From assembly GCA_021775575.1 (NCBI GenBank), contig JAJFHO010000060.1, positions 1-45,677 of the forward strand: DNA of 45,677 nt, given 5' to 3'. The number at the start of each line of letters is the position of its first letter. Positions within the stretch are counted from its first letter, which is position 1. This DNA comes from Hyphomicrobiales bacterium (GTDB lineage: Bacteria; Pseudomonadota; Alphaproteobacteria; Rhizobiales; Methyloligellaceae). Position numbers and translations under genes: made by a program. The notes under the pieces are model-generated. The model was not told the DNA's origin. It made no database searches and saw nothing but the letters and a program-made list of their open reading frames with translations. Below are positions 26,961-33,487 of this stretch, piece by piece.

Positions 26961-28220
26961 TTGAGACCAGGCTTGTCGGACACAGGACGGATGCTGAGCA
27001 AATTCACCAGTAAGGGCAAGAAGAACGCCGAGGTCGCCGTTGATCTGGTGGCCGCGAACCCTGCTATCAAGCACATGGTGGGGGAGGCGCTGGATCGCGA
27101 CGAGCGTTTTACGCTTGCGAAAAGTTTCGACACGATCGAGGAGGCCGAGCAAAGCAGTCTGGCTGCGTCGAGCCCGGCTATTCTGCTCGTTGAAATCGAC
27201 CCCGCCAAACCGGGCGATCTGGCGGCGATGGACAGGGTTATGGCGGGGCCGGCACAAGGACGCGCGGTCATCGCCATCATCGATGCGTTGACCGAAAGCG
27301 CGGTTCGCCAGTTGCTGCATCTGCATGTCTCGGACCTGCTGTCGCGCGATTGCGAGGCTGATGGTCTGCTGCGCGCCTGCGAACGGGCGATCCGGCCCGA
27401 AAGCGAGCGCAGCCGCTTTGCCGGCGCCAAATGCTATGCTTTCATTTCCGCTGGCGGCGGGGCCGGCAACACCTCGCTCGCGATCCAGAGCGCCTTTGTC
27501 CTTGCCCGCAAGACCCGCCAGTATCAGTCGACCTGCCTGATCGACATGGATTTTCAGGGCGGGGCCGTGGCCGACTATGTCGATGTTTCGCCAAATCTGC
27601 AGCTTGACGAAGTTGCCCGCTCTCCCGACAGGCTCGACGCCCAGCTTCTGGAAGTGATGATATCGCGCCATGATACGGGCCTGGCGGTAATGGCGGCGGA
27701 AAGCGCCTTGCGCCCCTATGACAGTGTCAGCGGCGACTGGGTCACCCGGCTGCTCGACATGGCATCGCTCAAATTCGAGAGCATCGTGCTCGATATGCCG
27801 CGTGTCTGGCTGCCATGGAGCGAGAGCGTGCTTCGCGGTTCGGACCGCGTATTTATCGTCACCGAAATGACCGTGCCCGGGCTCAGACAGGCGCGCCGGC
27901 TGCTCGAGGCGATCAAGAAGCAATGCGACGGCGAAATCGACATCTCGGTTATCGTCAACCGTTTCCGCCAGTCGTTCCTTGGCGGGGTCAACGCGGTCCG
28001 CAAGAAGGATGCGGAAGATTTGCTCGGAGACTGCCTCGCGGGCTGTGTCGCGGAAGATTACAAACTGGTGCGCGAGGCGATCGACCGCGGCGTGCCGCTC
28101 TACGAGATCGACAAGAAGAACAAGATCGAAAAGGATCTGGAGGCAATTCTGTTCGCCGAGCGCCCGCAGACCCTGCCGGTTCCAGTGGACGAACCAAAGG
28201 CGCGCGCCGCCGGCGATTAG
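26961..28220 (+). CDS. cpaE: Tad pilus localisation ATPase-like protein CpaE/TadZ
   Basis: Receiver-like N-terminus, degenerate ParA/MinD P-loop AFISAGGGAGNTSLAIQSAFVLA, CLIDMDFQGGAVADYVDVSPN. Start codon not certain. Confidence 0.82.
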   Translation: MRPGLSDTGRMLSKFTSKGKKNAEVAVDLVAANPAIKHMVGEALDRDERFTLAKSFDTIEEAEQSSLAASSPAILLVEIDPAKPGDLAAMDRVMAGPAQGRAVIAIIDALTESAVRQLLHLHVSDLLSRDCEADGLLRACERAIRPESERSRFAGAKCYAFISAGGGAGNTSLAIQSAFVLARKTRQYQSTCLIDMDFQGGAVADYVDVSPNLQLDEVARSPDRLDAQLLEVMISRHDTGLAVMAAESALRPYDSVSGDWVTRLLDMASLKFESIVLDMPRVWLPWSESVLRGSDRVFIVTEMTVPGLRQARRLLEAIKKQCDGEIDISVIVNRFRQSFLGGVNAVRKKDAEDLLGDCLAGCVAEDYKLVREAIDRGVPLYEIDKKNKIEKDLEAILFAERPQTLPVPVDEPKARAAGD

Positions 28221-28488
28221 GTTGAGAACTCATAAATATCGTCCATTCCACGCAGTGGATTTTGTCTCTGACAAGGCAGAAGAACGCGGGAAATCTTCAT
28301 GATTTTCAAGTTCTTATAACGCAGGCAGTGGCGAAATCCACCACGCCTGGAGGATTGAAAAAAAGGCGGCCCATCCGCCGCGCAGCCGGCTCTCGAATAG
28401 GCTATGGCCTGTCCATCGGCCCGATTGCGCGGCGGATGAGCCGCCTTTTACGAATGGAATTGCACGATATTTATGAGTTCTCAACCTA
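28218..28488. mobile_element. MITE-like element, copy 1 (~271 bp) with terminal inverted repeats
   Basis: Left end TAGGTTGAGAACTCATAAATATCGTCCATTCC; right end reverse complement TAGGTTGAGAACTCATAAATATCGTGCAATTCC. Internal 24-nt stem, 23/24 paired (28361-28384 with 28426-28449). Confidence 0.85.
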
Positions 28489-28523
28489 GGCTCCGGACCC
28501 AAGCCTCATACCTGCGACGTCCA

Positions 28524-31500
28524 TTATTTCGACCGCATTTCCGCTTCGCGTTCCAACAGCCGCTCGACGGTTTGGCGCAGCAGCGCGTAGGTGGCGCTGG
28601 GCGAGGCGTCGAGAAACTGCCTGAAACGGTCATGGGCCAGGGGAAGAAGAACCGAATCCTCGGCGCATTTTACGGTCGCCGAACTGGTCCTGTCCGCGAA
28701 CAGCGAGTATTCGCCGATCATGTCGCTGGCATGAAGACGGCGGACCGGCCTGCGGGTCTTCGGCAGATAAACGTCGAGGCCCCCGGACATAATGAGGAAT
28801 ATCTCGCTGGCCGGTTCTCCGAAGGTGCACACGGTTTCACCCTTGGCATATTCCTCCGGCTGGAGCATCTCGGCGAGTTCGTGAAGTTCGTGGACCGGCA
28901 GGTTGCCGAAGAAATTCGATTTCTTCAAAATCCAGAATTTGGCGTCGGGCTCCTGGTCGAACTCGACCGGCTGCTCGGCGATTGTCGCCCGGAAGTCGGC
29001 GTCGCGGGGAAAGAGCTCGCTGAACTTGCCCGTTGCATGGACCGCGCCTTCCTTCATGACCACGACCTGGTCGGCCAACTTGGCGAGATCGAGATCGTGG
29101 GTGATCGCGATAACGGTCTTTTGCTTCGCGCGTTCCTGCAGCAACCTGTTCACGTTCCACCGCTTGACCAGATCGAGCGCGGAGGTCGGTTCGTCGAGAA
29201 GATAAGTTTCCGCGTCACGCAGCAGTGTCCGGCCGAGACAGACGAGCTGGCGTTGCCCGCCCGATAAGCGCCGTCCGTCCCGGCCGACGCCGGTCTGAAG
29301 GCCGGATTCGATCAGCATGGCCCTGAGCGGTGATGCGGCCGTGTTGGCCAGGAGGATGCGGTCGAGCTTGCGCTGTATCCTGGTATCCGCGCTCGGCGCC
29401 CCGGCGAACAGGAGATTGTCGCGCCAGTTCAGGCCACCAAGGATCCTGGCCTCATCGAATGGCTCGACCGCGCCGGCAAGCCGCCGCTTGAGCGGTCCTA
29501 TAAATTCCGCTTGCGCCGTGCCGTTGCGCGCGAGTCCAAGACGCGCCGGGTCCCTGATTTCAAGTTCCGCGGGCGCCGTCAAAAGACCGGCCAGCATCAG
29601 CTGCGGATTCGCCTGGTCCTGCACTCCCAGGTCTTCGAGCAGCGATTTGCGCAGCATCCAGACCGGCGGGGAAAGCGGAAAACGCGCCTTGCCGTTATAG
29701 TCCTGGGGGCTGCCGCTGCGCGACAGCAACTCCCGTGTCCCCTTCAAGGCACGCAGCGCAAGGCCCGACAGGGCGTCCGCGAAGGCCGTACCGGCGAGCG
29801 CATCGAGGAATGCACGGTCGCTTTTCTGCTGCAGCATCAGCAGCGCATGCCGTTGGGTGACGCCGCCGAGGATATGGTCGACGACAGGATGATGGAGCGC
29901 CGCGCGGCCATCGCGGAAATAATGGAGCTTTAGTCCAAGCTCGCCCTCGACCTCTTCCTGCAGCATCCGCCGGACCGCGTGGAGCGCGCCGCCATCTATG
30001 TGCCTGGCCAGCGCCATTATCGGCTTGCGGTCCAGCGCCCGCTCCATGGCGAGCTGATCGAGGCCGATCGACTCTATGACCGCCAGCTCTTCGCCGGTCA
30101 GCGGCCGGCTGAAGCCGGAGGTTGCCTTGTTGTTGCCGCCGTCCTCTTTTTCTTTTGCATGTCCCGGATTGTCCGCTGCCGGCGCGATGCAGCCGAATAG
30201 CAGATTGCCCTTGATCGACGCATTCACCAGCGCACTGGTTTGCGGCATGTAGCTGAAAATCCTTGCCCGCTCTTCCGGCGATAGCCGGGATATTGCTGTG
30301 CCGGCATACAGGATTGTGCCCTTGTCGGTTTTCTTTCGTCCCAGCATGAGCTGGCTGAGCATGGACTTGCCCGAGCCCGACCCGCCAATGATGGCGGTAA
30401 GCGTACGGGGTTTGAAGCTAACGTTTACGCCGTCTTGCCCGCCCTGAACCTGGCCGTCCGCGCCAAAGCGGTATTTGACATTGCTCAGCGAGAGCGCCGC
30501 GGGCGATTTGCGCGCGCCTTTCGGCTTGCTGCTGCGCCTCGCCGGGGCGGGCGAGGCATATTGCATCAATCGGTCCACGGCATGCTGATTGATCCGGAAC
30601 TGCATCCGCAGCCGGGCGATCAGCAGCATATGGTGGAACAGGCTTGGCAGTGTGCGGATGATGACCGGCACTTCGCGCAAATTGACCTGACCGGAAAAAA
30701 ACTGGACCAGCGCCGTGATGAAGGCGGCGAAGGCGGCCATATTCGTAATCTTGTAGTTTGCCGCCTGGCGCCGGTTGAGTGGAATCAATTCCTCATAGGT
30801 CTGCCGGCGCGGTTTCTGAATGTCGGTGAAGCTCCGAAGCGTACCGGCATAGAGATTGGAGACCTGGACTTCCGGAGACACATTCAAATAGTCGCCGAGA
30901 ACCGACTTTATCCTGTCGTCCTGATCGCTGAGCTGCCGCTGGATTACCGGCAAGCGGGCGATGATGCGGTTGGCTGTCCAGGCTCCCACGCCAACGACGC
31001 CGAAGCCGATGAGGGCAAGCCGCCAGTCGAGTTTGAGAAAATAGATTAGCGGCGCAACGAGATTGCACGCCGCGAACCATAATTCGGAAATATCGTTGCG
31101 CCGTTCGATGATCTGATAGGCGTCGCCGGTGAGCCGGTTGGCAATTTCCGTGGCCGCGTGCTGGCGGAAGAATTCATCGTCCTGGCGCAGCAGATTGGCC
31201 AGCACTTCGCGCTCGATGTCTTCGCGCGAGATCGCGGTCAGGCTGCCGGTGGTCCATTCCTTGGCAAATTCGATAAGCGCTCCGATCGACAGAAAGCCGC
31301 AATAGAGCAGGAGCAGGGCAAAGAATGTCTGTCTGCCGGCCCCGGCGCCAAATGATTGAAGGAAGGCGCCAAAGTTCACCGTGTAGAAATTCGCGCTGCC
31401 TTGATCGGCGGTTCCCGCCGCGCGGTCCGAAATCATTCCGTATAAGGCGTCGACCAGCTGCGAGAGGAGCTCGAGTTCGTAATAGAGAATGAATGTGACC

Positions 31501-31610
31501 AGGGTTCCGCAAACGAACAGCGCCAGGAAATGCCCGAGATATTTCCGGTTATAGACCGACAGCCAGTCCTGCAGGGCGGCGTTGGCCGGCATCTTGTTGG
31601 CTTTCGGCAT
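28524..31610 (-). CDS. ABC transporter (TM + NBD with large insertion) with C-terminal cyclic-nucleotide-binding domain
   Basis: TM N-terminus; Walker A IIGGSGSGKSMLSQLMLG; LSGGQRQLVCLGRTLL; Walker B TYLLDEPTSALD; C-terminal CTFGEPASEIFLIMSGGLDVYL...IGEYSLFADRTSSATVKCAEDSVLLPLAHDRF. Confidence 0.88.
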   Translation of the reverse strand: MPKANKMPANAALQDWLSVYNRKYLGHFLALFVCGTLVTFILYYELELLSQLVDALYGMISDRAAGTADQGSANFYTVNFGAFLQSFGAGAGRQTFFALLLLYCGFLSIGALIEFAKEWTTGSLTAISREDIEREVLANLLRQDDEFFRQHAATEIANRLTGDAYQIIERRNDISELWFAACNLVAPLIYFLKLDWRLALIGFGVVGVGAWTANRIIARLPVIQRQLSDQDDRIKSVLGDYLNVSPEVQVSNLYAGTLRSFTDIQKPRRQTYEELIPLNRRQAANYKITNMAAFAAFITALVQFFSGQVNLREVPVIIRTLPSLFHHMLLIARLRMQFRINQHAVDRLMQYASPAPARRSSKPKGARKSPAALSLSNVKYRFGADGQVQGGQDGVNVSFKPRTLTAIIGGSGSGKSMLSQLMLGRKKTDKGTILYAGTAISRLSPEERARIFSYMPQTSALVNASIKGNLLFGCIAPAADNPGHAKEKEDGGNNKATSGFSRPLTGEELAVIESIGLDQLAMERALDRKPIMALARHIDGGALHAVRRMLQEEVEGELGLKLHYFRDGRAALHHPVVDHILGGVTQRHALLMLQQKSDRAFLDALAGTAFADALSGLALRALKGTRELLSRSGSPQDYNGKARFPLSPPVWMLRKSLLEDLGVQDQANPQLMLAGLLTAPAELEIRDPARLGLARNGTAQAEFIGPLKRRLAGAVEPFDEARILGGLNWRDNLLFAGAPSADTRIQRKLDRILLANTAASPLRAMLIESGLQTGVGRDGRRLSGGQRQLVCLGRTLLRDAETYLLDEPTSALDLVKRWNVNRLLQERAKQKTVIAITHDLDLAKLADQVVVMKEGAVHATGKFSELFPRDADFRATIAEQPVEFDQEPDAKFWILKKSNFFGNLPVHELHELAEMLQPEEYAKGETVCTFGEPASEIFLIMSGGLDVYLPKTRRPVRRLHASDMIGEYSLFADRTSSATVKCAEDSVLLPLAHDRFRQFLDASPSATYALLRQTVERLLEREAEMRSK

Positions 31611-31664
31611 GGCGACTATGGCATCGTCCGGAGTTATCGGAGCCGAACTGGTGAAACAGGAAAC

Positions 31665-31933
31665 TAGGTCATGAACTCATATATGTCGTGCAATTCCGTA
31701 CGAACAGGGCGGTCCATCCGCTGCGCACTCGGCTCTCGAATTGGCCGTGGCCTGTCCTTCGACCCGCTTGCGTGCGTCTGAATCGTCGTTTTCAAGCCCT
31801 CGGGACGTGGTGGATTTTGCCGCTGGACGCGTTAGAAGGGTTTGAAAAACATGGATATTTCCAACGCCCCTCGGCTTTGCCGGAGACAAAATCCGGCGCG
31901 CGGAATGGACGGCATTTATGAATTCATGACTTG
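31665..31933. mobile_element. MITE-like element, copy 2 (~269 bp), inverted relative to copy 1
   Basis: Left end TAGGTCATGAACTCATATATGTCGTGCAATTCC; right end reverse complement CAAGTCATGAATTCATAAATGCCGTCCATTCC. Internal sequence (CGGCTCTCGAATTGGCC, GTGGTGGATTTTGCC, GAGACAAAATCC) matches the reverse complement of copy 1. Confidence 0.85.
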
Positions 31934-32080
31934 GCTTGAGCGGGAGCGGACATACAGACCCGCCCGATCCGTTAAAATTTGAGCGATTGGATTCGGTATA
32001 TTTTTTCTTTCTTTGCTTATCCTCTCAGGCTGCGGATTGCCGCAAAGGGTTCAAAGTGAGAGGGAGCGTGCGTCCGGGTT

Positions 32081-33487
32081 ATGGGACGATTTTCATCAGC
32101 AATATTGAGTCCGGTTACGGAATGCGACGATGATGCGCCGCACGAGGCGGAGTCCGTGCCGGGCGATCCTGTGGAGATTGAAGCTGACGAGGCGCCCCGC
32201 GACAGCAAGCTAACCCAGCCGCGTTTTCTCGAGGCGAAGGTGCGCCTTCACCGCATGCTGATCGAGGTGATCGATCTTTCGGTCCTTGAAAAAGTCAGCC
32301 GGGAAGAGCTGCGCGACCTGGTCGGAGAGGTCGTCAGCAAGCAGGTTCTCGACGAGCGTCTGCCATTGAACAAGGAGGAACTTGCGGAATTTTGTGAAGA
32401 GGTCTGCGACGAGATGACGGGGCTTGGGCCGCTCGAGCCGCTACTCGAGGACCCAACGATTTCCGACATTCTCATCAATACCCATGACCAGGTTTACGTG
32501 GAGCGTTTCGGCCAGCTTGAGCTGACCCAGGTGAAATTCAAGGATGAAGCGCACCTGCTGCGGATCCTGAACAAGATCGTCGCTGCCGTGGGGCGGCGCG
32601 TCGACGAGTCCCAGCCTATGGTCGATGCCCGGCTGGCGGACGGCAGCCGCGTCAATGCCGTCATCCGCCCACTGGCCGTCGACGGGCCGCTGATCTCGAT
32701 CCGGAAATTCTCCAAGAAGCCGTTCTCGATGGACAAGCTCGTCGAGATGGGCGCACTCAAGAAACCGATTGCAGAGGTGCTTGCCGCCGCCGTCAAAGGC
32801 CGTGTTTCGATGATCGTGTCGGGCGGCACGGGCACCGGCAAGACAACAATGCTGAACGCGCTCTCAAATCATATCTCGGACAAGGAACGGCTTGTCACGA
32901 TTGAGGACGCGGCCGAGCTGCAGCTTCAGCAGCCTCATGTCGGGCGTCTGGAAACCCGACCGCCGAATATTGAAGGCAACGGCGAAATCCGCCAGCGCGA
33001 ACTGGTCAAGAATGCACTGCGCATGCGCCCGGACCGGGTGATCCTCGGCGAGGTGCGCGGCGAGGAAGCCTTCGACATGCTTCAGGCGATGAATACCGGC
33101 CATGAAGGGTCGATGGCGACAATCCACGCCAACAACCCGCGCGACGCCATCGCGCGGCTGGAGAATATGATCGGCATGGCCGGCTTCAACATGGGCGAAA
33201 CGTCGATGCGCTCGCAGATTGCCTCGGCCGTCGGCATGATCGTTCAACTGACACGCTTGAGCGACGGCACGCGCCGGCTGACCAGCGTCGCCGAGATCAC
33301 CGGCATAGAGGGCTCGATCCTGCAGATGCAGGAAATCTTCAAATTCGAGCGCACCCATACCGACGAGAACTACAAGGTGCACGGGGAGTTCCGGGCGACC
33401 GGCGTACGGCCAAAATTCATGGATGAGCTCAAGTTGAGTGGCGTCGAGCTGCCGTCCGAATATTTCGATCCCAAAGATCCGCTTTAG
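32081..33487 (+). CDS. cpaF: Tad pilus secretion ATPase CpaF (TadA)
   Basis: [77 protein letters not shown]. Confidence 0.95.

Follow-up and report, generated by a model that had tools for sequence, protein, structure and literature searches.

How did an ABC transporter gene come to lie between cpaE and cpaF in the tad pilus locus of a Hyphomicrobiales bacterium, and did the two related repeats around it carry it there? The window analysed is the whole stretch of 45,677 nucleotides of contig JAJFHO010000060.1 (assembly GCA_021775575.1). An earlier note on this DNA had taken the 3.7-kb block for a composite unit, in which a pair of MITE-like elements had mobilised the ABC gene as cargo. We examined the elements, their relatives, their target sites and the junction itself.

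The element pair and its setting

Elements a and b bracket a minus-strand gene for a 1028-aa ABC/cNMP protein inside the cpaE–cpaF interval. The covariance model R1 (see below) matches both elements over their full length, and the description of two related elements of ~270 bp around the ABC gene is correct. The features are as follows (positions in the window).

26961-28220, plus strand: cpaE/tadZ, with its stop codon within the target site of a
28218-28488, plus strand: element a, a 271-bp MITE, young copy (R1, 229.5 bits, E 8e-67)
28218-28245, plus strand: left terminal inverted repeat (TIR) of a; it opens with TAG, which doubles as the stop codon of cpaE (GAT TAG)
28250-28346, plus strand: hairpin 1 of a, the most conserved arm, with a GGAAA..TTTTCAAG core (fold and covariation; coordinates from alignment A2)
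28354-28455, plus strand: hairpin 2 of a, a terminator-like stem (fold)
28461-28488, minus strand: right TIR of a, followed by G (CTAG)
28524-31610, minus strand: ABC exporter gene (Pfam, sequence, GC3)
31665-31933, minus strand: element b, a 269-bp MITE, old copy (R1, 106 bits, E 5e-30)
31971-31982, plus strand: cpaF leader box GTTAAAATTTGA, 110 nt before the cpaF ATG, same sequence and position in genome G004
32081-33487, plus strand: cpaF/tadA

The two elements are about 71-74% identical to each other, and b, which lies 54 bp from the start of the ABC gene, is far more decayed; its outer end reads CTTG in place of CCTA. The inverted arms at the ends of a comprise 36 bp and are 89% complementary. 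The inverted orientation reported for the pair applies to the greater part of the element; the exception is hairpin 2 of b, which is flipped relative to hairpin 1 of b. The terminator-like stem of hairpin 2 of a has a T run on the minus strand (28381-28366), i.e., on the strand that would serve the ABC transcript, and element a may now terminate transcription between cpaE and the ABC gene, which are convergent. Directly after a, the sequence TAGGCTCCGGACCCA (28487-28501) resembles another IS427-type end; the candidate partner sought for it across the ABC gene was no better than chance.

Copies in the same genome and the ages of a and b

Element a matches ten other places in its own genome (E < 1e-54), well beyond chance, and about a dozen full-length or short copies are found there, in addition to partial ones. 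Over the whole length, a is 96%, 94% and 93% identical to the solo copies on contigs C73, C7 and C225, respectively, and it is 82% identical to the copy on C45. The first 128 nt of a are 100% identical to the C73 and C98 copies, whereas b is 74% identical to a in this segment, and the identity of b to each of the own-genome copies is 71-77%. The identities of 93-96% (100% over 128 nt) for a, compared to 71-77% for b, show that a moved recently and b long ago. Thus, the earlier proposal of an old event is retained for b, and a is a young arrival. Five short copies (~160-190 bp; C98, C249, C254, C47 and C273, loci L006-L010) are devoid of hairpin 2; their break points differ slightly, as if hairpin 2 had been lost repeatedly.

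Probable mobilisation by IS5/IS427-type transposases

MITEs moved by an IS are of a well-known kind (PMC10969869). In two genomes that carry the family we found ISs with ends nearly those of the elements, namely L187 4-843 in G066 (ends TAGGTCATGGACTCATTAAA) and L183 1061-1905 in G107 (ends TAGGGTCCRGACYCTTTA), both in CTAG. These ISs are 840-845 bp long and contain two ORFs, and their proteins match NCBIfam NF033580 (IS5 family) and the Pfam domains DUF4096 and DDE_Tnp_1. They fit the IS427-group ISs described for Paracoccus, which are 832-865 bp long, in some cases have two overlapping ORFs, and mostly generate 2-bp duplications (PMC3281130). Significant similarity between elements and ISs is confined to the last ~19 bp, as it is in type II MITEs of the IS427 group. 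The elements also share with type II MITEs (IS5 family, IS427 group) the non-coding sequence, the length below 500 bp, the IS427-type TIRs, the TA/YTAR target and the occurrence as several solo copies. The label MITE-like is upheld by the TIRs, the YTAR target with TA duplication, the multiple solo copies and the presence, in related genomes, of IS5/IS427-type elements whose ends match.

Given the matching-end IS5-family (IS427-type) ISs in carrier genomes, the elements probably belong to the type II MITEs and are moved in trans. An IS427-group transposase would recognise TIRs of ~18-20 bp, insert at YTAR and duplicate TA; one of this type presumably moved a and b. A parent transposase with these ends, for which the earlier note had proposed a search, was not found in the own genome with the DDE_Tnp_1 and DDE_3 profiles (281 contigs): the former returned only an IS1182-like gene that does not have these ends, and the latter nothing.

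Target sites and stop codons

Across 58 elements, 53 have a YTAR target (CTAG 25, TTAG 14, CTAA 10 and TTAA 4). Among 38 ORFs that enter an element, the terminal TAG of the element serves as the in-frame stop of 26, compared to the expected one third (p 1.5e-5); it should be noted that ORFs of at least 120 codons were called mechanically, and single cases may be wrong. Because an in-frame TAR is a stop codon, these insertions hit native stops that were restored by the TIR. The TIR begins with TAG, and insertion at a TAR stop codon regenerates the codon, as a did at the stop of cpaE. The last codons of cpaE, at element a, are GAT TAG; without the element, the site would read GAT TAG GCT. Four elements show stop-codon landing on both sides, between convergent genes, and a CDS of Phyllobacterium zundukense, annotated independently, stops at the last three bases of an element. 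The pattern may reflect targeting or selection against gene damage; the YTAR preference combined with selection is sufficient to account for it.

The cpaE–cpaF junction in relatives

According to the earlier note, cpaE and cpaF are normally adjacent. This is the case in G004 (same family), where the junction is empty and the alignments of the two genes are separated by 153 bp, and in G031 and G041 (same order), where cpaE adjoins cpaF. The three genomes G011, G013 and G015, which represent another genus of the family, are different: the gap holds 4.4, 6.3 and 1.5 kb of unrelated genes, respectively. Judged by eye from their sequences, these code for a DinB-like polymerase together with an FAD oxidoreductase, or for a CoA-transferase. 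The R1 search found no element of the family between cpaE and cpaF at any of these loci. The leader box GTTAAAATTTGA is present upstream of cpaF in G011, G013 and G015, exactly or with one mismatch, and in G004 it is separated from the cpaE stop by only ~12 nt. Its conservation in G004, G011, G013 and G015 suggests that the junction is an insertion-prone boundary between transcription units. On the simplest reading, cpaF of this family would start a separate transcription unit, and insertions would be tolerated in the gap before it. A scan of 28100-32200 for consensus promoters gave sites no more numerous than in shuffled sequences.

A local rearrangement of the tad region was seen in G019 (L106): cpaE is followed by CoA-transferase-like and xanthine-dehydrogenase-like genes, and then by genes homologous to ORFs 21032 and 22030, two ORFs that in the window are located upstream of the tad genes.

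The ABC gene

The product of the ABC gene contains a transmembrane domain, a nucleotide-binding domain and a C-terminal cNMP-binding domain (Pfam). Walker A is located at about residue 409 and the LSGGQ signature at 782, with ~370 residues between them, and the motif NLLFG/NLLFAG is repeated at both borders. From its sequence, the protein looks like one with a single nucleotide-binding domain that is split by ~250 aa and followed by the cNMP-binding domain. An AlphaFold model computed from two sequences was useless (pLDDT 32). The GC3 of the gene (0.759) is the same as that of the tad genes (0.754-0.772), and the gene therefore shows no sign of having come recently from a foreign source.

The ABC gene was found at the cpaE–cpaF site in no sampled relative. 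Its closest homolog is a paralog on C254 of the same genome (34-38% identity); outside this genome, one Hyphomicrobiales MAG has a homolog with 32%, and others reach at most 32% over comparable length. Only distant homologs being available, the gene could not be used for dating through its relatives. The element nearest to the C254 paralog is 22 kb away. The paralog (L092:860-5839 on C254) has a Pro/Gly-rich N-terminus and lies beside a divergent radical-SAM-like gene with a CxxxCxxC motif; the same pair is present in the Hyphomicrobiales MAG OFTM346. This arrangement suggests a putative peptide-export system.

Independent insertions versus a composite transposon

Taken together, these observations make us confident that a and b are independent insertions of different age from one non-autonomous family, probably moved in trans by IS5-family transposases, and that the ABC gene arrived separately, presumably by its own route, into the narrow space that separates the stop of cpaE from the leader of cpaF. 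A composite transposon, i.e., a and b as the ends of a single 3.7-kb unit that brought the ABC gene into the tad locus, is suggested by inverted related elements at both ends of a gene that is absent from the same site in relatives. Instead of near-identical ends, however, the block has ends with 71% identity, one of them decayed, compared to 93-100% between a and solo copies. The flanks at the elements are CTAG/TTAG, and each element has its own YTAR-type site, which is seen at both ends of a and at the inner end of b; the outer target site of b is unreadable because this end has decayed to CTTG, and a single duplication outside the whole block is thus not legible. The block occurs at one locus only (no second copy in the 4.06 Mb and 281 contigs of the genome), the C254 paralog is unflanked, and the composition of the supposed cargo is fully host-like. 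With the great difference in age and a junction that has been invaded recurrently by other genes without these elements, the composite origin put forward in the earlier note is not supported and is very improbable. By a rough estimate, the chance that two of ~15 copies in 4 Mb lie as close as here (3.2 kb apart, within 3.7 kb) is ~15%; the bracket therefore needs no special cause, and coincidental bracketing is plausible.

It is also conceivable, though unlikely, that b came with the ABC gene or marks a rearrangement point, and that a was inserted later at the cpaE stop codon. The age of b and its position 54 bp from the ABC start, next to a young a, would fit such a history, but no partner end for b was seen. 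A TIR-like inverted match immediately around the ABC gene was considered and rejected as chance-level, because 330 of 2000 random pairs score as high. We retain independent insertion as the preferred explanation.

Spread and conserved fold of the element family

The TIR pattern was found in nine genera within a 398-genome sample of the order, mostly in elements of ~268 bp. Eleven elements from several families, 268-271 bp in length, gave an almost gap-free alignment that was made without reference to structure, and the covariance model R1 was built from them. With R1, full-length relatives of ~266-275 bp were detected in 86 of 298 genomes and 56 of 123 genera of the order (E <= 1e-5), and outside the order in 20 of 288 genomes of a class-wide sample (E <= 1e-6). 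At most six candidates per genome were scored in these searches, and copy numbers are lower bounds. The named carriers are plasmids of Nitratireductor and Phyllobacterium (Hyphomicrobiales), in which the element itself is unannotated. Neither the window elements nor 20 relatives matched Rfam, and no name for the ~270-base family was found in Rfam or in the literature searched.

The consensus fold consists of an outer TIR stem, a branched hairpin 1 and hairpin 2. Among 92 pairs, 74 have changes on both sides, and 91% of the pairing cells are paired; shuffling lowers this value to 70%, and sliding the partner lowers it to 42% or less. Unpaired and paired positions are conserved to a similar extent (0.67 and 0.63). 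In a fixed register on the structure-blind alignment, the ratio of G-T to A-C mismatches is 126:28 in hairpin 1, 41:32 in the TIR stem and 57:76 in hairpin 2; one conserved G-T column contributes 29 of the 126 in hairpin 1. A cruder structure-blind count that runs through internal loops gives 103:97. As proof of an RNA function this strand bias was set aside as suggestive only, since it appears for hairpin 1 in the model-based and fixed-register counts but not in the cruder one; it hints that hairpin 1 is maintained as a structure of the single strand.

What maintains the fold can be read in two ways. A serious rival to selection is homogenisation of the palindromes at the DNA level, by template switching between the arms, which would leave structure without function. 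Quasi-palindrome correction can transfer changes from arm to arm, and the TIR stem and hairpin 2, with 41:32 and 57:76, are free of strand bias; we consider this explanation a substantial possibility, short of probable. The conservation of unpaired positions like paired ones, the length that stays fixed near 268 bp class-wide and the 126:28 ratio of hairpin 1 speak against it, although the cruder count gave 103:97. Only tentatively do we consider a class-wide alphaproteobacterial element whose folded non-coding interior is selected, as RNA or as a single DNA strand for mobilisation, whose ends are re-fitted to the resident IS427-type transposase, and which spreads harmlessly by insertion at stop codons that it regenerates.

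Unusual forms were also encountered. L111 and L138 (G321) are 49-bp relics that comprise little beyond two fused TIRs, in the same kind of target site. L121 and L127 (G089) are versions of 274 and 374 bp with an extra palindrome inside hairpin 1, with or without hairpin 2, i.e., a modular exchange of hairpins.

Comparison with known repeats

In ordinary type II MITEs, similarity to an IS is limited to the ends (PMC10969869), whereas the present family keeps interior length and fold across the class. It is unusual for an interior to be conserved class-wide when the ends vary from lineage to lineage. Br-REP1 and Br-REP2 of Bradyrhizobium are also intergenic palindromic repeats of Hyphomicrobiales and are transcribed as 3'-end hairpins; they differ in being short REPs with another consensus, and a ~270-bp mobile unit with TIRs and a TA target is not described for them (PMC5082802). 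An uncertain 'Rhizobiales-1' motif with no Rfam entry is listed in PMC2864571.

The likeliest earlier description of the family is that of the Caulobacter CIR repeats. CIR elements were reportedly described by Chen and Shapiro in 2003 (cited by title in PMC10969869) as long intergenic repeats of Caulobacter crescentus and other Alphaproteobacteria that are associated with CcrM sites. They have an inverted-repeat layout. Like the present elements, they are long intergenic repeats of Alphaproteobacteria, a likeness by description; the two may be the same family. GANTC occurs at 18 of 84 ends of the present elements, compared to 5.7 expected from shuffles; this comparison is uncorrected for common descent, and the link to CcrM was set aside.

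Implications

These results remove a false composite MITE transposon; in its place stands a family of elements for which one covariance model suffices as a search tool. Landing on stop codons explains how such elements accumulate in compact genomes without breaking genes. The elements may supply ready-made 3' ends, for example the current one that lies downstream of both cpaE and the ABC gene. Should selection act on the folded interior, the family would allow one to examine why a selfish element that has no gene retains its shape for so long.
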